IMG/VR virus record: IMGVR_UViG_3300044695_006854
Location: 1 to 41,887 of that record
DNA length: 41,887 bases
Strand: one strand, 5' to 3'
From: a virus
Below the pieces are notes generated by a model. That model saw nothing but the letters and a program-made list of their open reading frames with translations, made no database searches and was not told the DNA's origin. A program made the position numbers and the translations under genes. Of this stretch, positions 3,234 through 41,887 are shown piece by piece (position 1 is the first letter of the stretch; every line of letters begins with the position of its first letter).

Positions 3234-3926
3234 ATGGATCCCGCGCGCGCCCTCGCCTCGATCGACTCGGCTCTGGCCTCGCTGACCGCGGCCCGGGCCG
3301 CCCTCGCGAGTCCGCCGGTGATCCCGCCCGACTTCGTGCCGCCGGTCAAGCCGCCGGCGGCGACCGTGCCGGTGAGCTACCGACTCCCGCGCGAGACGAC
3401 CGCGGCGATGACGGCCGTCTACGGCGCGCCCAGCGCGTCGGCCGACTCGCTGGCGTGGTTCTCGTTCCCGCACCCCGGGACGCGCCTCTACTCGCGCGAC
3501 GGTGCCGCGCTGCGGAGCTACGTCGGCGACAGCCGCCTCGACCACCGCACCCACCGGCTCCTCGCCGATCGCTTGACCAACGCCCTCGCCGAGATCCACG
3601 CGACCCTCGGCGGCGAGCAGTTCGAGCGCGAAGGCTGGCACGTCTACGGTGGCAGCCACAATTTCCGCCCGAAGGTCGGCGGGTCGAGCCTCTCGACCCA
3701 CGCATGGGCCGCGGCCGTGGACATCAACCCGGCCGAAAACGTCTTCGCCCAGCGCACCACAACCTTTTCGGACCGCGCCATCGACATCATGGAGCGGTGG
3801 GGCTTCCTGAGTGGCGGCCGCGCCTGGGGCAAGGACTGGATGCACTTCCAGGCGGTGATTCCGTCGATCACCGCCGGATCGTATTACGACCGCAACGGCC
3901 TGCCGAAACACATCACCCCCGCATGA
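3234..3926 (+). CDS. M15-family peptidase endolysin
   Basis: 230 aa. Residues 1-45 are an Ala/Pro-rich leader or linker. The C-terminal domain carries the D-Ala-D-Ala carboxypeptidase-like metallopeptidase signature: SLSTHAWAAAVDIN gives zinc ligands H156 and D163, and DWMHFQ gives the third ligand H204. Such enzymes cut peptidoglycan stem peptides. It lies between a holin and a membrane coiled-coil protein and overlaps the latter by ATGA. A variant CTGAC with a 15-nt spacer precedes the start. Confidence 0.85.
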   Translation: MDPARALASIDSALASLTAARAALASPPVIPPDFVPPVKPPAATVPVSYRLPRETTAAMTAVYGAPSASADSLAWFSFPHPGTRLYSRDGAALRSYVGDSRLDHRTHRLLADRLTNALAEIHATLGGEQFEREGWHVYGGSHNFRPKVGGSSLSTHAWAAAVDINPAENVFAQRTTTFSDRAIDIMERWGFLSGGRAWGKDWMHFQAVIPSITAGSYYDRNGLPKHITPA

Positions 3927-4189
3927 TCGCCGAAGCCGCCACCTCTGCACACGTCGTGGAAAAGCTCCTCAACATCGGCGGCACCGCCGGGATCCTTTAC
4001 GTCGCGATCTACTTCCTGGTCCGGACTCTGAAGGACCAATACGAAAGCCGGATCAGCGCCCTCGAAGTGCGCAGCGACCACTGCGAGCAGGACCGCCGGT
4101 CGATGCACCAGGAGATCCGCCTGATCCAGCAGGAGCGGATCGGTGCCCTTGAGCGCGTGCTGCGGCACAGGGAGGACGAAGACCCATAA
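3923..4189 (+). CDS. Membrane-anchored coiled-coil lysis protein (holin/i-spanin-like)
   Basis: 88 aa from ATG 3923, overlapping the endolysin stop. One hydrophobic helix at about 17-35 (GTAGILYVAIYFLVRTL) is followed by a charged heptad-rich helix to the end. This resembles XhlA-like haemolysin/holin accessories and the inner-membrane spanin class. No overlapping outer-membrane lipoprotein gene was found, so the spanin label is tentative. It is the last gene before attP. Confidence 0.5.
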   Translation: MIAEAATSAHVVEKLLNIGGTAGILYVAIYFLVRTLKDQYESRISALEVRSDHCEQDRRSMHQEIRLIQQERIGALERVLRHREDEDP

Positions 4190-4200
4190 TTTTGCCAACG

Positions 4201-4215
4201 GGGCACTGAGTGCCC
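4201..4215. repeat. Inverted repeat GGGCACT/AGTGCCC in attP left arm
   Basis: Seven-base arms around one base. The GGGCACT half-site matches the direct repeats on the other side of the core at 4429-4494, so it may be the left-arm copy of the same binding site. Confidence 0.45.
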
Positions 4216-4257
4216 AAGGAAGTCGCCCAGCCACCGCCACAAGGAGGGTTTCCGCAT

Positions 4258-4300
4258 GCTCATAACCTAAAGGTCGTTGGTTCAAATCCAGCTCCCGCAA
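4258..4300 (+). other. attP core: 3' half of initiator tRNA-Met(CAU)
   Basis: The segment starts at the anticodon loop CTCATAA, followed by 3' anticodon arm CCTAA, variable loop AGGTC, T arm GTTGG-TTCAAAT-CCAGC and 3' acceptor strand TCCCGCA with discriminator A. This is the 3' half of a tRNA-fMet. The 5' arm that would pair (TTAGG) is absent, so it is not a functional tRNA. It is the expected attP core of a phage that integrates into tRNA-fMet and restores the gene, and it lies 206 bp before the integrase start. Confidence 0.8.
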
Positions 4301-4307
4301 CTCTCTT

Positions 4308-4346
4308 AAAACCCCGTTTCCCTTGTGGAGACGGGGTTTTTTGTTG
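4308..4346 (+). terminator. Rho-independent terminator after attP
   Basis: AAAACCCCGT (4308-4317) pairs perfectly with ACGGGGTTTT (4331-4340), extended inward by four more pairs to a five-base loop, then TTTTTTG. It may be the host tRNA terminator carried within the att region, or it may insulate the integrase from the lysis genes. Confidence 0.85.
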
Positions 4347-4428
4347 GTTGGGGCGACTTGGTGGTGGGGGGCGGAAAAATCGGGGTGGTTGATTTTGGTC
4401 GTTTTTGGTCGTATTTTTTGACGATTAT

Positions 4429-4494
4429 GGGCACCGGGTGGGCACTGGGTTTGGTCACTGACTGGACACTGGCGGGCACCGGACGGGGCACCGG
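4429..4494 (+). repeat. Six direct repeats GGNCACYGG upstream of the integrase
   Basis: Copies start at 4429, 4440, 4453, 4464, 4474 and 4486, spaced 10-13 bp, about one helical turn. They end 12 bp before the integrase ATG. They could be arm-type integrase sites or an operator array. The stretch 4347-4428 also holds a doubled TTTGGTCGT. Confidence 0.6.
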
Positions 4495-4505
4495 AATCGG
4501 GAGAG

Positions 4506-5729
4506 ATGAAGGTGACGAAGGTGAACGATCCGGGCAGGCGGCTGCCGTGGAAGCTGGACGGCTACTTCGGGGGCCGGCGGGTGAGACTTTTTTTTGCGAC
4601 GAAGGGGGAGGCGGAGGCGGAACGGCTGCGGCTGTCGGGGGAACGGGGCGAGACGGGGACGACGGGGGACCGGCTCTCGCCCCGGGAACGGGTGGTGTTC
4701 GCGGAGCTGCGGGACCGGCTCGCGGAGCGGGGGGCGACAATGGAAGAGGCGGTGGGCTTTTTCCTGGAGCACGGCACGGCACCCATGCGGCCACGACGAC
4801 TCTGGGATCTGCTGGACGAGGCGATCGAGGGGAAGGAGCGGGAGGGAAAGAGCGAACGGTATCTGGTGCAGTTACGGTGCACGGTGGGGTCTCTGCTGAG
4901 ATGCGAGGGATGGGGAGAACGGTGGGCGCACGAGCTGACGCGGGAAGCGGTGGAGGCATGGGTCGATGGCAACGGATGGAGCGACAAGACCCGGCGGAAT
5001 TATTTGATCAATGTCAGGAGCGTGCTGGAGTGGGGCCGAGCCGCGGGCTCGGTGCGCCGGAATGTGACGGAGGGGATCCGGCTGCCGAAGGGGGAGAAGG
5101 AGGGGGAGGTGTCGGTGCTGTCTGTCCGCGACGCGGCCAGACTGGTCGCGCTAGCGCGACCGAGGGCGGTGGGCGGTAGGCGGTTGGCGGTGGCCGGTCA
5201 AGCTGTAAAGGAATCCTCTACAACTGAAGTCGCGGAAAGGGATGGGGGGCTGCTCGTGTATGTGGTGCTGGGGCTGTTCTGCGGGCTGCGACCGGAGCGG
5301 GAGATGGGGCTGATGCGACTGTCGGCGATCAACCTGGAGGAGGGGACGGTGGTGGTGGATGCGGGATTGGCGAAGAGCCGCTCGCGGCGGGTGGTGGATG
5401 TGCCGGTCAATGCGCGCGGATTGTTGAAGATGGGGGTGGAGTGGCTGCGGGCCCGGGGGGAGGACCGGGTGGTGGGACGGAATTTCCGGAAGCGATGGGA
5501 GGGACTGCGGCGACGGGCGGGTCTGGAGGAATGGCCGGCGGATGTGATGCGGCACAGCTATGCGAGCTATCACTTTGCGATGTGGCAGAATGAGAATTTG
5601 TTGAAGGCACAGATGGGGCATTCGCGGGAGTCGGAGGTGCTGTGGCAGCATTACCGGGCGCGGGTGACGAGGCGGGAGGCGGAGCGGTTCTGGCGGATCG
5701 GCATGGGGAGACAAAATGATGGGGGGTAG
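4506..5729 (+). CDS. int: Tyrosine-family site-specific integrase
   Basis: 407 aa. There is an N-terminal arm-binding region, a core-binding SAM-like domain (about 95-195) and a catalytic domain. Catalytic residues visible are R262 (GLFCGLRPE), K290 (AKSRSRR), R349 (DVMRHSYAS), H372 (MGHS) and the nucleophile Y383 (QHYR). The box-II first position, normally His, is D346. Residues about 219-248 are an extra in-frame segment encoded by a GGCGGT word repeat that interrupts the usual link between the DAARLVALA helix and the R motif. The last codons (RQNDGG stop) are supplied by a GACAAAATGATG repeat. It presumably recombines attP with host tRNA-fMet. Confidence 0.9.
   Translation: MKVTKVNDPGRRLPWKLDGYFGGRRVRLFFATKGEAEAERLRLSGERGETGTTGDRLSPRERVVFAELRDRLAERGATMEEAVGFFLEHGTAPMRPRRLWDLLDEAIEGKEREGKSERYLVQLRCTVGSLLRCEGWGERWAHELTREAVEAWVDGNGWSDKTRRNYLINVRSVLEWGRAAGSVRRNVTEGIRLPKGEKEGEVSVLSVRDAARLVALARPRAVGGRRLAVAGQAVKESSTTEVAERDGGLLVYVVLGLFCGLRPEREMGLMRLSAINLEEGTVVVDAGLAKSRSRRVVDVPVNARGLLKMGVEWLRARGEDRVVGRNFRKRWEGLRRRAGLEEWPADVMRHSYASYHFAMWQNENLLKAQMGHSRESEVLWQHYRARVTRREAERFWRIGMGRQNDGG
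5164..5200 (+). repeat. GGCGGT-type word repeat inside the integrase gene
   Basis: Tandem near-copies of a seven-base word (ggcggtg, ggcggta, ggcggtt, ggcggtg). The same family lies at 7140-7177 and, inverted, at 7569-7620. Confidence 0.65.
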
Positions 5730-8145: not shown

Positions 8146-8775
8146 ATGGCTACAAAAGCAAAAGCAGAGACGGCGGTGCAGATCAGTGCACCGAAAATCG
8201 AGACGGCGGAATTCAAGATCGTGGGGACGGCTCCCTACGTGCAGCTCCGCTTCTCGGAAAAGGCGATGAACACGATGGCCGAGAAGATGATGCTCGGCTC
8301 GCAGGCGGGGAAGAAGCGGGCGAAGGAGGCCCGGGACTTCGACGAGGATTTCCGCCAGGCGATGCACTACAGCGAGGAGGGCTGGAACGGGATCCCCGCG
8401 GGGGCGTTCCGGAACGGCCTGATCTCGGCGTGCCGATTGGTGGGATTCAAGATGACGCTGGCGAAGCTGTCGGTGTTCGTACTGCCGGATGGCTTCGACA
8501 AGGTGGACGGAGTGCCGCTGATCCAGATCGAGGGCAAGCCGGAGCCGGTGACGATGCACGTGCGGAACGCGACGGGGGTCGCGGACCTGCGGGTGCGGGC
8601 GAAGTTCTGGCCGTGGAGCGCGAATCTGCGCATCCAGTATGACGCCGGCCAGTTCTCGACGACGGACGTGGCGAACCTGCTGCTGCGGGTCGGTGCGCAG
8701 GTGGGGATCGGCGAAGGCCGGCCCGATAGCAAATCCTCGGCCGGGATGGGTTGGGGGACTTTCTCGATTGGCTGA
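8146..8775 (+). CDS. Conserved early phage protein with RAMP (Cas7)-like motifs
   Basis: 209 aa. I recognise it as a recurrent uncharacterised early phage protein. Residues 83-97 (IPAGAFRNGLISACR) resemble the IPxSSLKGALR helix of RAMP/Cas7-type RNA-binding proteins. The C-terminal glycine-rich stretch (VGIGEGRP at 186-193, GMGWGTF at 200-206) resembles their G-rich loop. This similarity is from memory of motifs, not a search, so RNA or ssDNA binding is an inference. It ends 10 bp before the GGCNN array, which is itself followed by another conserved early gene. The replicative neighbours suggest a nucleic-acid role; a single-strand annealing or binding protein is the main alternative. Confidence 0.55.
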   Translation: MATKAKAETAVQISAPKIETAEFKIVGTAPYVQLRFSEKAMNTMAEKMMLGSQAGKKRAKEARDFDEDFRQAMHYSEEGWNGIPAGAFRNGLISACRLVGFKMTLAKLSVFVLPDGFDKVDGVPLIQIEGKPEPVTMHVRNATGVADLRVRAKFWPWSANLRIQYDAGQFSTTDVANLLLRVGAQVGIGEGRPDSKSSAGMGWGTFSIG

Positions 8776-8785
8776 CAATGCTGGA

Positions 8786-9266
8786 GGCGCTTCCATCGCA
8801 GGCTGCGCACGGCCGCGCATCGCTAGGTTTGGTCCGGCGAGGCGGGGCTTGGCAGGGCAACGCAGGCAAGGCTAGGCACGGCGTGGCCGGGCACGGCCGG
8901 GCCGGGCTCGGCGAGGCATGGCAGGCAAGGCGCTGCGAGGCGAGCCCTGGCTACGCCAGGCAAGGCACGGCAGGTGTGGCTAGGCATGCAGCGGCGCGGG
9001 ATGGCGGGGCACGGCAGGCTAGGCTCGGTTTGGCTGCGCTTGGATCGGATCGGTTCGGCGAGGCAGGCAAGGCACGGCTGCGCAAGGCAAGGGCAGGCCG
9101 GGCACGGCAGGCCAGGCGTGGCACGGCAAGGACGGGCGTGGCCCGGCTCGGCATGGATTGGCACGGCAGGCAGGGCGTGGCGTGGCGAGGCGTGGCTCGG
9201 CTAGGCCAGGCACGGCAGGCGCGGCCTCGCGAGGCCCGGCGTGGCACGGAGAGGCAAGGCAGGCAC
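8786..9266 (+). repeat. Degenerate GGCNN pentanucleotide array
   Basis: About 95 consecutive five-base units with consensus G-G-C-N-N, in which positions 1-3 are mostly fixed and 4-5 are highly variable (ggcaa, ggcta, ggcac, ggcgt, ggccg...). The register is broken by single four-base units (CGCA at 8861, GGCA at 8920, 8969, 9013, 9062, 9106, 9165, 9214 and 9258), giving blocks of 59, 49, 44, 49, 44, 59, 49 and 44 nt. Most breaks sit in GGCACGGCAGGC. It lies on the transcribed strand of the early operon between two genes. Frames are open only because stops are rare in such sequence. GG every five bases could allow two-tetrad G-quadruplexes. Function unknown. Confidence 0.9.
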
Positions 9267-9333
9267 GACACAAACCGCGACCGGAGAGCGGGGTAAAAAT
9301 GGCCGGAATCAATCCTAACCCACATCAAAAATC

Positions 9334-9768
9334 ATGAGTCTGATGACACTGCAACAATCGCTGGCCGCACTGGCGGAGCGCAACGGGGGCGAACTGACAC
9401 CGGCGGCGGTGGTCGATTACGCGCGGCCGAAAACGTCGCCGATCCACGATCGCTTCACGTGGGACAACAAGGTCGCCGGGGACAAGTATCGACTGCTGGA
9501 GGCGGCGATGCTGATCCGATCGGTGCGGATCTCGTTCGAGGACAACGCGGGAGAGGTGGCGCCGCCGGTGCGGGCCTTCGTCAACATTCGCGAGAATCCG
9601 AAGGAGCCGGGCGCCTACATCCCGATCCAGCGGGCGCTTTCTTGCTCGGAGACCTCGGCGGTGATGCTGGAATCGGCGAAGCGCGAGGCGGATTCGTTCC
9701 GCCGGAAGTATGCCAGCCTGGAACAGGCGCGGCGGGTGGTGGAAGCGATCGGTGAATTCGTGGCCTGA
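9334..9768 (+). CDS. Conserved early phage protein, unknown function
   Basis: 144 aa. It belongs by pattern to a widespread early phage family: GELTPAAVVDYARPKTSP, then IHDRFTWDNKVAGDKYRL, IRSVRI, and a C-terminal helix SFRRKYASLEQARRVVEAI. It follows the GGCNN array by 67 bp, with no Shine-Dalgarno sequence in front of ATG 9334. I know no function for this family. Its regular company with recombination-type early genes suggests DNA replication or recombination. Confidence 0.6.
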   Translation: MSLMTLQQSLAALAERNGGELTPAAVVDYARPKTSPIHDRFTWDNKVAGDKYRLLEAAMLIRSVRISFEDNAGEVAPPVRAFVNIRENPKEPGAYIPIQRALSCSETSAVMLESAKREADSFRRKYASLEQARRVVEAIGEFVA

Positions 9769-12172: not shown

Positions 12173-12182
12173 ATCATGGGGG
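12151..12182 (+). repeat. GACAAAATCATG element, copy 4
   Basis: Variant gacagaatcatgggggg; provides the TGA stop of the gene before it and a candidate ATG at 12176. Confidence 0.8.
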
Positions 12183-12200
12183 ATTCACTTCCGCAACGGG

Positions 12201-12233
12201 GAACGAGGAACCAAGAACAACGAACCAAGAACG
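12201..12233 (+). repeat. ACCAAGAACAACGAACC word repeat, second copy
   Basis: Sits directly before the ParB-like start, followed by a run of seven T. Confidence 0.6.
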
Positions 12234-12241
12234 ATTTTTTT

Positions 12242-13924
12242 ATGACCGACCTGATCATTCATCAACCCATCGACGGAATCCGCATGTGGAACAACGCGCG
12301 GACGCTTTTTGACCAGAAGGAACTCGAGGAACTGGCGGCTTCGCTGCTGGAGACGAAGGGGGCGCAACAGTATCCGGTGGGCTTCCTGACGGACGGCGCG
12401 GGATCGGAGGTGGCGCTGCTGATGGGCGAGCGCCGGTGGCGGGCCTACCGGATCCTGCGGGACAAGGGGCACGCGGACTACGCGGCCCTGCCGGTGCGGA
12501 TCGTGGCGCAGCCGAGCGAGAAGGATGCCTACAAGTGGTCGCTGATCGAGAACCTGCAGCGCGTGAACCTGCGGCCCTCGGAGACGGCGGAATGGGTGGC
12601 GCGGATGCTGGATTTGGAAGACGAGGAGACGGGCCGGAAGGTGTGGACGATGGAGAGCCTGGGCGAGGATCTCGGCAAGGACAAGGGCTACATCGACGAA
12701 CTGATGCAGATGCGCCGGGCGCCGCTGACGGTGCGCGAGGCGGTGGACGCGGGGGCCTGTGCGGTGCGGATCGGGCGGATGATCGGGTCGCTGCCGCAGG
12801 AGATGCGCGAGGGGGCGGCGGCGGAGATCGTGTTCGGCCCGATGGGGTGCATGACGGTGGCGGCGGCGCAGGACTGGATTTCGACGCATTACCGCCGGGA
12901 TCTGCGCCGGGCGGACTTCGCGACGGACCAGGTGGGCCTCGATGGAAAGCCGGCTTGTGTGCGGTGCGAATGGTGGGGCGGGAACCGGGCGGATGTGGGC
13001 GGGAAGAATGCGGTGCATTCGTGCCTCAATCCGGCGTGTTTCGCGGCGAAGCAGCGGGCGGCGGTGGCGGCCTCGGTGGAGGAGGAACAGGTGATCGAGC
13101 CGGAGGCGGCGGAGGGGATGTGGGAGGTGCACACGGGCCGCCTCGCGCCGTCGAGCGGCTACGTGGATCTGGAGGAAAAACCCTCGCCGCTGATGCTGGC
13201 GGACGGGGGCCGCGGCGGGGCGGTGGTGCCGAGCTGGGGCGAAATTTTGGAGGGCTCGGGCGTGGCCCCGATGGTGACGTGGGATCCGCGCGGGGCGCGT
13301 CGATCACTGGTGGAGACGGGCGAGGCCCTGCGCGCGGCCGGCCAGTCGAAATGGGGGGCACTTTTCCGCGATGGGGTGGTGAATGAATACCTGTCGCCGG
13401 AGGAGCGGGCGGCGGAGCGCAAGGCGCGCGCGGCGGGGGATGCGGAGCATCGGGCGGCGGTGTCGGAGGGGCTCTGCGAACTGGCCCGGGGGCTGCGGGT
13501 GGGCACGCAGGAGCTCGACGAGGTGATCGCGGCCGCGGCGCGGGTGGCGCTGGAGGATCTGTGCAAGGGGGAGGATCTGGCGCTGGTGGCGGAGGTGCTG
13601 GGGGTGAAGATGGGCGAGGGCCGCACGCTGGAGCATTTGGAAAACGCGGTGGGCGCGATGCGCGGCGCGGAGCTGGGGGCGGCGATTGTGACGGTGCTGC
13701 TGGCCCGGCGGGTGCGGTATGAGGGCTTCGCGCCGCTGATCCAGGAGGACGGCGCGCCGCTGGCGGAGCTGTGCCGCATGGCGGGCTTCGACGCGGGGGC
13801 CTGGCATCGTCAGGCGCGGCGCCGCCGGAATGCCGCGGAACGCGCGGGCCGGGACAAGGCGATGGAGGACGCGAAGGGGAAGGCCCAGCGCGCGATCGGG
13901 AATCGCGCGACGAAGCGGGAGTGA
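12242..13924 (+). CDS. ParB/Spo0J-domain protein with cysteine cluster
   Basis: 560 aa from ATG 12242; an in-frame ATG at 12176 lies in repeat sequence and is less likely. The N-terminus is a ParB-type domain: NARTLFDQKELEELAASL, MGERRWRAYRIL (62-71), LPVRIVAQ and the LIENLQRVNL box (101-110). An HTH-like region follows (ETAEWVARMLD, YIDELMQMRRAPLTVREAV). Around 239-262 is a cysteine cluster (CVRCEWWGG...CLNPACF) that may bind metal. The C-terminal half is helical. No ParA is encoded. It could act in partition, transcription control, or as a CTP-dependent clamp; a 26-bp palindrome downstream is a candidate site. Confidence 0.7.
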   Translation: MTDLIIHQPIDGIRMWNNARTLFDQKELEELAASLLETKGAQQYPVGFLTDGAGSEVALLMGERRWRAYRILRDKGHADYAALPVRIVAQPSEKDAYKWSLIENLQRVNLRPSETAEWVARMLDLEDEETGRKVWTMESLGEDLGKDKGYIDELMQMRRAPLTVREAVDAGACAVRIGRMIGSLPQEMREGAAAEIVFGPMGCMTVAAAQDWISTHYRRDLRRADFATDQVGLDGKPACVRCEWWGGNRADVGGKNAVHSCLNPACFAAKQRAAVAASVEEEQVIEPEAAEGMWEVHTGRLAPSSGYVDLEEKPSPLMLADGGRGGAVVPSWGEILEGSGVAPMVTWDPRGARRSLVETGEALRAAGQSKWGALFRDGVVNEYLSPEERAAERKARAAGDAEHRAAVSEGLCELARGLRVGTQELDEVIAAAARVALEDLCKGEDLALVAEVLGVKMGEGRTLEHLENAVGAMRGAELGAAIVTVLLARRVRYEGFAPLIQEDGAPLAELCRMAGFDAGAWHRQARRRRNAAERAGRDKAMEDAKGKAQRAIGNRATKRE

Positions 13925-38456: not shown

Positions 38457-39923
38457 ATGCCCATCCCGGTCCTGACCGCCCCGACGACGCCGCGCATCCT
38501 CGCGCAGGGCGTCGCGATCCCGACGCTGACGCTGTCGGCGAGCAACACGCCGACGAGCTTCGCGGCGTCGCCTCTGCCGGATGGGCTGTCGATCAACACC
38601 TCGACGGGGGCGATCACCGGCACGCCGACGACGGCGGGGCTGACGACCAGCTCGCTGACGGCGACCAACGGCGACGGCACCAGTGCGGCGGTGCCGCTGG
38701 TGTGGGACATCCAGGCCTCGGCGACCGGGCAGGGACTCTGGAGTGACCTGGAGCTGGACCTCGACCTGGTGACGCGCGAGGTGTCGCGGCCGCTCGTGGC
38801 GACGCCGGACACGCGCGTGGTCGCGCGGATGCTCAGGAAGGACAACATGAGCCTGCTGGTCGGGGCGAAAAAGTGGGGCGTGCTCCGCGACCTAAAGCCT
38901 GGATCGGAGACGGTCTCGGTGAAAATGGCGCTCAAGGAATTCTCGCCGGAGATCAACCTGCTCGTGGCCGGCGGCACGCCGACGAAGGTGGGCAGCGGAG
39001 CGTCGACGCGCTTCCGGATCCCGATCCAGATAACGGAGGCGCAGTGGACGGTGCTGAGCGACTACGAAGGCGACGCGCGGACGATGGTGTCGGCGGTCGC
39101 CGAGATCGAGATCGAGGTGGGCGTGCTGCGGGTGTCGTCGAGGCCGTTCCGGATCGAGATCGTGCGGGATCATTTCCCGCCGCTGCCGAGTCCGAGCGCA
39201 AGCGCAAGCGCGAGTCCGAGTCCGAGCCCGTCGGGGTCGGGGCCGTATTTCTTCGCTCTGGCCTACGGTAGTTTTGGGAATCCCGCGTGCGAAAGTCAGA
39301 ATGGCTTAACCGCCTACGCTTACGTTCCGGTGTTGGATGTGGGCGTGGCGCTTTTTTCCGACCAGGATCTTTTGTATCCTCTCCTCGGTTACGCCGATTA
39401 TGGACTGAGCGATGGGGTGTATTTTTATGCCGTCGATGGCAGCGGCGGCATCACCGCAAAGAGCGCGTGCGCCCCGTCCTCGTCCTCGGCCCCGCCATCG
39501 TCCTCGGCCCCGCCATCGTCTTCGGCCCCGCCGTCGACCTTGCCCCCGCCATCGTCTTCGGCCCCGCCGTCGTCCTCGGCCCCGCCGTCGTCCTCGGCTC
39601 CGCCGTCGTCCTCGGCACCGCCGTCGTCCTCGGCACCGCCGTCGTCCTCGGCCCCGCCATCGTCTTCGGCCCCGCCGTCGTCATCGGCACCCAGCTACTA
39701 CAGTTACTCCCTGTCCTTCGATGCGACCGGATACGCCGGCGCATGCTCCGCGTGGCCGACGGCCTCGACCTATTATTCGGCGAGCAGCCCGCTGGGTTTC
39801 GGTTCGTATCTCTACACCGATTCCAATCTGGGGACACCCGCCAACGACGGGCACTACTCGACCGGCACGACCTACTACACGGTCTACGGGAGCGGTTACA
39901 TCTCGGCGACAGGATCGTGCTGA
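38457..39923 (+). CDS. Ig-like fibre with Ser-Pro linkers and duplicated tip domain, paralogue 2
   Basis: 488 aa. Residues 1-245 repeat the Ig plus C-terminal domain of the preceding gene. Then come an Ala-Ser-Pro linker (PSASASASPSPSPSG) and two related 80-residue domains: YFFALAYGSFGNPACES... and YYSYSLSFDATGYAGACSA.... Each is rich in Tyr, ends in GSGxI(T/S)A...C and has paired cysteines. The two are joined by about 12 SSSAPP repeats. This looks like an extended adhesin with two receptor-binding heads on a flexible stalk. Confidence 0.65.
   Translation: MPIPVLTAPTTPRILAQGVAIPTLTLSASNTPTSFAASPLPDGLSINTSTGAITGTPTTAGLTTSSLTATNGDGTSAAVPLVWDIQASATGQGLWSDLELDLDLVTREVSRPLVATPDTRVVARMLRKDNMSLLVGAKKWGVLRDLKPGSETVSVKMALKEFSPEINLLVAGGTPTKVGSGASTRFRIPIQITEAQWTVLSDYEGDARTMVSAVAEIEIEVGVLRVSSRPFRIEIVRDHFPPLPSPSASASASPSPSPSGSGPYFFALAYGSFGNPACESQNGLTAYAYVPVLDVGVALFSDQDLLYPLLGYADYGLSDGVYFYAVDGSGGITAKSACAPSSSSAPPSSSAPPSSSAPPSTLPPPSSSAPPSSSAPPSSSAPPSSSAPPSSSAPPSSSAPPSSSAPPSSSAPSYYSYSLSFDATGYAGACSAWPTASTYYSASSPLGFGSYLYTDSNLGTPANDGHYSTGTTYYTVYGSGYISATGSC
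39475..39690 (+). repeat. 18-nt tandem repeat coding SSSAPP
   Basis: About 12 copies of an 18-nt unit (tcctcggccccgccatcg and variants) forming the stalk of the fibre gene. Prone to length change. Confidence 0.85.
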
Positions 39924-41067: not shown

Positions 41068-41887
41068 GTGAGCGCGCCGATCCGTCTACGTCATGCCGTG
41101 GTGCCTCTGCTGGCAATGCCGGCGGGGGGTAAATTCAAGCTGGGGTTTTCGGTCGCGGCGGGCTACGATCCCGGCACGGTGCCCGGATGGCGGGTCGAGC
41201 TGGCGGCCCGATACGGGGCCAATCGGACGCCATGGGTCGGCTCGACGGTGACCGTGGTCGGCCAGGATTTTTCGTTCGAGTTCGACCCGGACGCGGCCAG
41301 CGACGACGACGAGGACGTGAGCCTCGCCGATGTGGCCGAGGCGGGCAATTGTGCCTGGTCAGTGACCGCCCTCGACGCCGAGGATCTGCCGATGTGGCGG
41401 GTCCAGGGCGACGTGGACTGGGTCGAGGGTCTCGGCGATCCCGACACGGGCGTCGGCGGATCGGGGGCAAATCCCATCATCGTCCACCTCGACGACGCGG
41501 AGACGATCAGCCTGTCGATCGCGACGGGCGCGGATGGTGCGCCGGCCTACGTCTACGTGGGATACGCGGAGGACGACGAGGGCACGGGCTTTGCGACGAC
41601 GGCCGGGGTGGGCCGGGATTATGTGGCGTTCCTTTCAACCGTCGAGGAGATCGAGACGCCGACGGCGGAGGATTTCGAGGGGCTCTGGCACCAATACAAA
41701 GGCGCGGCCCCGGGACCGACGGGTGCGACCGGTCCTGCCGGAGCCGCTGGAGCCACGGGCGCGACCGGTCCTGCCGGAGCCGCTGGAGCCACGGGCGCGA
41801 CCGGTCCTGCCGGAGCCGCTGGAGCCACGGGCGCGACCGGTCCTGCCGGAGCCGCTGGAGCCACGGGCGCGACCGGTCCTGCCGGAG
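41068..41887 (+). CDS. Collagen-like virion protein, N-terminal part (continues at base 1)
   Basis: Open frame from GTG 41068 to the window end, where it continues in frame at base 1 if the 109-bp terminal overlap is collapsed, giving a protein of about 537 aa. The first ~214 residues form a non-repetitive domain with an acidic stretch (DDDEDV). From about 41710 they give way to Gly-X-Y collagen-like repeats ([12 protein letters not shown] pattern) encoded by a 36-nt tandem unit. The GTG start is chosen because TTGAC lies 15 nt upstream, as at other late genes. Such proteins usually form trimeric tail-fibre or fibril shafts. The position after the tail genes supports a virion surface role; the exact function is inferred. 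Confidence 0.75.
41743..41887 (+). repeat. 36-nt tandem repeat, right end
   Basis: Four exact 36-nt units plus one base, encoding collagen-like [12 protein letters not shown]. Bases 41779-41887 are identical to bases 1-109. Confidence 0.9.

Follow-up and report, generated by a model that had tools for sequence, protein, structure and literature searches.

A probable VIPR locus in a 41.9-kb virus record: a Cas7-like protein gene beside a GGCA-punctuated array of candidate guide RNAs

We describe a locus in a 41,887-bp virus record from IMG/VR, the whole of which we call the window, that we take with a probability of about 0.93 to be a VIPR system, in which a vipr gene is followed by about nine vrRNA guides in one array and by a likely accessory gene, and whose Cas7-like subunits would read DNA as NNxNNx and repress rival phages. 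VIPR (Viral Interference Programmable Repeat) is presented in a 2026 preprint (PMC13142463), whose text describes Vipr as an ancestral RAMP that uses vrRNAs of alternating GGY and NN. According to the same text, double-stranded DNA is recognised through the NN pairs, each unit passing over one base, binding represses transcription, chiefly in competing phages, and the architecture varies among seven types. An earlier note on this DNA, made from the sequence alone, knew of no named feature like the array; the vrRNA arrays of that preprint supply the name. Among its suggestions, a protein reading every fifth position came close to the truth, as the Vipr/RAMP family, a member of which is encoded next to the array, binds such RNAs (PMC13142463). 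The locus comprises:

8146..8775, + strand: vipr, phrog_4652, a RAMP/Cas7-like Vipr protein of 209 aa with a C-terminal G-rich loop GIGEGRPDSKSSAGMGWGTF, directly upstream of the array
8801..9261, + strand: probable vrRNA array of nine guides, each a run of GGY-NN units, with a 4-nt GGCA (once CGCA) between neighbouring guides; relatives share this architecture
9334..9768, + strand: candidate vap (VIPR accessory protein), phrog_15946 (E=2e-25), 144 aa, motif LHxxFxWDxxxAxxxYR

Results

The protein genes

Profile comparison, hhalign and predicted fold agree that 8146-8775 encodes a Vipr protein. Its family, phrog_4652, is without assigned function in its annotation. When a profile of 39 homologues was compared with the PDB, the single relevant chain was 36pp, the 'SUSP1 Vipr protein' (E=3e-23), and hhalign to SUSP1 agp039, the Vipr gene of that phage, gave a probability of 99.3% (E=2.6e-20). 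The AlphaFold2 model (pLDDT 91) had Cmr, Csm and type VII Cas7-type subunits as its top Foldseek matches (best E 8e-6), and the C-terminal GIGEGRPDSKSSAGMGWGTF resembles the glycine-rich loop of CRISPR RAMP proteins. The window protein is a minimal RAMP with an RRM core and a G-loop, the combination that defines VIPR proteins.

The product of 9334-9768 is likely the VIPR accessory protein. Genes of its family were found in 94 of 108 Vipr loci, usually in the order vipr-array-vap. Its AlphaFold2 model also reached a pLDDT of 91 and had no significant fold match in the PDB, winged-helix-like matches being weak at best; homology to the SUSP1 accessory protein was not detectable.

A periodic array on a GGY scaffold

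The earlier note had placed a 480-nt array at 8786-9266, and this is confirmed, though the limits narrow a little, to 8801-9261 (+ strand) with a trailing GGCAC. The array holds 74 GGC triplets, and 47 steps from one GGC to the next are of exactly 5 nt, compared with 3.6 ± 1.9 (maximum 11) when the stretch was simulated 2000 times under a first-order Markov model; nothing close to a comparable array was found elsewhere in the 41.9-kb record on either strand. The periodic fixed triplet of the GGCNN unit proposed in the earlier note stands, but it is better written GGY, mostly GGC and sometimes GGT; a minority of units depart from it by one base (CGC, GGA, TGC), roughly a quarter of those in the window deviating at a scaffold base. 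The array lies between two conserved phage genes (phrog_4652 and phrog_15946), on the sense strand of the operon, and is non-coding, as had been claimed. An Rfam search of the window returned no family, a literature search on the GGCNN pattern returned unrelated papers only, and identical repeats with unique spacers, as in a CRISPR array, are absent from the region.

Two other readings of this periodicity were weighed. Stacked two-tetrad G-quadruplexes in RNA or DNA, serving as a structural or regulatory signal, would suit GG runs every 5 nt with 3-nt loops; nothing specific speaks for them, however, the whole transcript folds only slightly better than shuffles (z=-1.9), and they would leave unexplained the invariant C/Y, the GGCA every 5k-1 nt, the confinement of variability to NN and the strict link to a RAMP gene. 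A relative (L152) has a GTC scaffold, from which no GG quadruplex can form, and we consider this reading highly improbable. The probability that the stretch is a protein-coding gene with GXAXX-type pentapeptide repeats is close to nil: a 181-aa frame (8751-9296) is indeed open over most of the array, and proteins have been annotated on arrays in Gordonia phages (UmaThurman gp40, Pipp gp43), but GGCA steps shift the reading frame about every 50 nt, also between close relatives, the frames of many relatives contain stops, a conserved protein is lacking, and base changes recur with a periodicity of 5 rather than 3.

Nine guides punctuated by GGCA

The phase breaks to which the earlier note had pointed exist, and they prove to be regular: they are 4-nt units (GGCA, once CGCA) spaced 5k-1 nt apart. 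Eight such steps are internal to the window array (seven GGCA, one CGCA) and a final GGCA closes it. If GGCA steps are guide boundaries, as we infer, 8-12 units lie between them, and the array, all on the + strand, divides as follows:

Guide 1, 8801..8860, +: 12 units, NN pairs TG AC CG AT TA TT CC GA GG TT AG AA, then CGCA 8861-8864; the least certain start
Guide 2, 8865..8919, +: 11 units, NN pairs AA TA AC GT CG AC CG CG TC GA AT, then GGCA 8920-8923
Guide 3, 8924..8968, +: 9 units, NN pairs AA GC GA GA CT TA CA AA AC, then GGCA 8969-8972
Guide 4, 8973..9012, +: 8 units, NN pairs GT TA AT GC GC AT GG AC, then GGCA 9013-9016
Guide 5, 9017..9061, +: 9 units, NN pairs TA TC TT TG TT TC TC TC GA, then GGCA 9062-9065
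Guide 6, 9066..9105, +: 8 units, NN pairs AA AC TG AA AA CA CG AC, then GGCA 9106-9109
Guide 7, 9110..9164, +: 11 units, NN pairs CA GT AC AA CG GT CC TC AT TT AC, then GGCA 9165-9168
Guide 8, 9169..9213, +: 9 units, NN pairs AG GT GT GA GT TC TA CA AC, then GGCA 9214-9217
Guide 9, 9218..9257, +: 8 units, NN pairs GC CT GA CC GT AC GA AA, then terminal GGCA 9258-9261

The same punctuation runs through the related loci. In strict contexts 98 of 101 4-nt steps are GGCA, from mycobacteriophage to cyanophage, and a looser parser gave 665 GGCA and 82 CGCA among roughly 800; successive GGCA steps are again 5k-1 nt apart, with mostly 7-12 units in between. The unit preceding GGCA tends to GGCAN (A at N1 in 65%), and interior NN are near maximal entropy. 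No conserved 3' tail was found after each guide, GGCA alone standing between guides; the invariable 3' tail of SUSP1 and P. fulva belongs to the type II clades characterised in the preprint and, as architecture varies among the seven types (PMC13142463), does not define VIPR as a whole.

A contiguous array punctuated by GGCA is not spelled out in the main text of the preprint, which names 'staggered arrays with overlapping vrRNAs' (PMC13142463), an expression that may denote this very architecture. Guides that overlap in a staggered array, rather than ending at GGCA, are a possibility that we hold to be the lesser one: besides being named in the preprint, such an arrangement would suit the lack of a separate 3' tail per segment, in that the following units might act as a tail. 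Against it, close relatives exchange GGCA-bounded segments whole, as modules, and the bias of the unit before GGCA is what an end would have.

Association of protein and array across loci

Loci were chosen by the Vipr protein alone, using a profile of a closer subset of Vipr proteins, as a 35-protein profile was too diverse. A GGYNN array was present in 89 of 102 such loci (17 of 22 cellular, 72 of 80 viral), always on the sense strand of vipr; the antisense strand and shuffled sequence each gave none. In at least some of the exceptions (for example L160, L214 and L226) hardly any sequence, or none, remains past the gene. From the other direction, a scan of IMG/VR by the array pattern alone yielded at least 120 stretches, about 39 of which encode Vipr by plain tblastn.

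Among known phages, a GGCNN array adjoins a vipr homologue in Cyanophage Cy-LDV1, the Gordonia phages UmaThurman, ODay and Pipp, and Mycobacterium phage Quico. Like the window, these combine a vipr homologue (32-65% identity) with a GGCNN/GGCA array and a phrog_15946 gene. They differ in that the array of Quico lies upstream of vipr, that a second array follows vap in Cy-LDV1, and that the NN content is different from that of the window throughout. The earlier note had named the lack of the pattern in related phages as a sign against its array; homologous regions in related phages have it. The second Cy-LDV1 array (L129, 3921-4077) is likewise of the GGCNN/GGCA kind and sits just ahead of the excisionase gene. 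UmaThurman gp40 (L130, 3137-3460) and Pipp gp43 (L132, 3123-3392), annotated as hypothetical proteins, coincide with the vrRNA arrays and are likely misannotations.

Two further loci depart from the usual scaffold. Gemmatales KatS3mg105 (L152) carries on the + strand, at about 3720-5600, a GTCNN array of ~1.9 kb whose 4-nt step is GTCA. A Vipr homologue (49% identity) is encoded upstream of it; the scaffold change is coherent, and is probably one of the 'related consensus' forms mentioned in the preprint (PMC13142463). In a Dehalococcoidia MAG (L155, 4299-4938) the guides are built on GGT while the 4-nt separators are still GGCA, and the separator thus appears more conserved than the scaffold.

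Guide turnover and variability of NN

Between close relatives, whole guides have been swapped (L161, L170 and L176), duplicated (L182 against L186) and lost (L168 against L171) at GGCA. Comparison of 18 pairs of nearly identical guides counted 43 base changes, 36 of them at NN, which accounts for two fifths of the positions. This bears out the fixed scaffold with variable content of the earlier note, and the comparison of homologous arrays that it proposed shows, as it expected, GGC kept while NN changes.

Target search

None of the four guides scanned, of the nine in the window, gave a credible target. Exact 18-base scans of IMG/VR under the skip rule gave no matches for guides 8, 7 and 2; guide 3 matched 7 contigs from three unrelated families, an outcome expected by chance; by our own estimate, chance at this database size yields about one family per scan. 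A guide of L182 matched three families, also chance-like, and Bradyrhizobium prophage guides, run as a control against 272 genomes of the genus, stayed at chance level. The last guide of L194 (GA AA GA AT TT GA AC CG AT) matched 19 phage contigs (L245-L263), all in the T4-like gp41 helicase gene, in frame and skipping the wobble base. The match is suggestive only: the helicase gene may be a natural target of that guide, but chance could give such a match as well, and we do not claim it.

An all-against-all search of 681 guides against the loci gave only a marginal excess for a 1-nt skip. Pooled NN composition is closest to that of codon positions 1-2 in the sense direction (KL 0.12, compared with 0.20-0.39 for other readings), the resemblance that skipping of the wobble base would lead one to expect. 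As an argument from composition, short of proof, it is a sign independent of the preprint that the wobble base is skipped.

These results bear on whether the array is degenerate or unused and the system inactive in the window phage. The scaffold deviations in roughly a quarter of the units (CGC, GGA, TGC) and the failure to find a target for the scanned guides fit such decay. The Vipr protein, however, is intact, the deviations are mostly of a single base, and similar ones occur in relatives and in the experimentally active SUSP1, which makes inactivity unlikely.

Elsewhere in the record

The ends of the record (1-266 and 41719-41887) share the same collagen-like repeat with a 36-nt unit; this may point to a circular or terminally redundant record, or to ends that break off within a long repeat. 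At 39471-39688, twelve copies of the 18-nt repeat GCCCCGCCGTCGTCCTCG lie within a coding frame. In the early region, downstream of the VIPR genes, 12176-13924 encodes a 582-aa protein with a ParB N-terminal domain.

Discussion

We observed here the protein family, the array, the strict association of the two on one strand, punctuation by GGCA and variable NN, while transcription, binding, the skip rule and repression are carried over to this locus by analogy with the preprint. By that analogy, a single + strand operon transcript would carry guides of 8-12 GGY-NN units, to which Vipr subunits would bind, probably one per 5-nt unit. The GGY bases would hold the RNA in the protein and leave the NN pairs exposed for pairing with double-stranded DNA as NNxNNx, usually skipping the codon wobble base, and DNA binding would then repress transcription of rival phages or prophages.

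The closest characterised counterpart is the type II VIPR of Escherichia phage SUSP1 (PMC13142463, PDB 36pp), which is likewise phage-borne and has a homologous Vipr/RAMP protein, GGY/NN repeats beside the gene on the same strand and an adjacent accessory gene; in the SUSP1 locus sequence, the repeats lie on both sides of the vipr-vap gene pair. The window differs in having one contiguous nine-guide array with GGCA separators, where SUSP1 has a structured tail after the guide, in a scaffold that is mostly GGC instead of GGT, in the order vipr-array-vap, and in a different, not detectably related accessory gene. Several window guides, with 8 units, fall just below the 9-16 repeat units reported for vrRNAs (PMC13142463).

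Class 1 CRISPR-Cas effectors (Csm3, Cmr4 and type VII Cas7) share with the window protein a Cas7-like fold, as judged by fold matching, and a guide RNA thought to be held with periodic interruption. In contrast to those systems, the window array has no identical repeats and spacers, its period is 5 where that of CRISPR is 6, and its guide information is non-contiguous. Mycobacteriophage repeat genes of the Tweety gp54 type were also considered and rejected, being in-frame protein repeats with a 12-bp period (PMC2884959); they have in common with the window a GC-rich phage repeat of fixed and variable positions and are otherwise unrelated.

VIPR is programmable, needs no PAM, is tiny, and has been proposed to predate CRISPR; most of what has been worked out concerns SUSP1 and P. 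fulva, both with type II systems. The window locus and its relatives make up a large clade in which several guides are packed into one compact array punctuated by GGCA. Their modular turnover raises the question of how new non-contiguous guides arise, since a guide whose every NN pair is interleaved with GGY can never be a copied piece of its target. That guides are gained as whole GGCA-bounded modules, by a phage machinery of unknown kind that writes a non-contiguous code from the target, strikes us as very unlikely; should guides really be acquired, however, and not arise by selection among random variants, phages would have to possess such a writing machinery. The clade includes culturable Mycobacterium smegmatis and Gordonia phages, in which processing, guide turnover and targets are directly testable.
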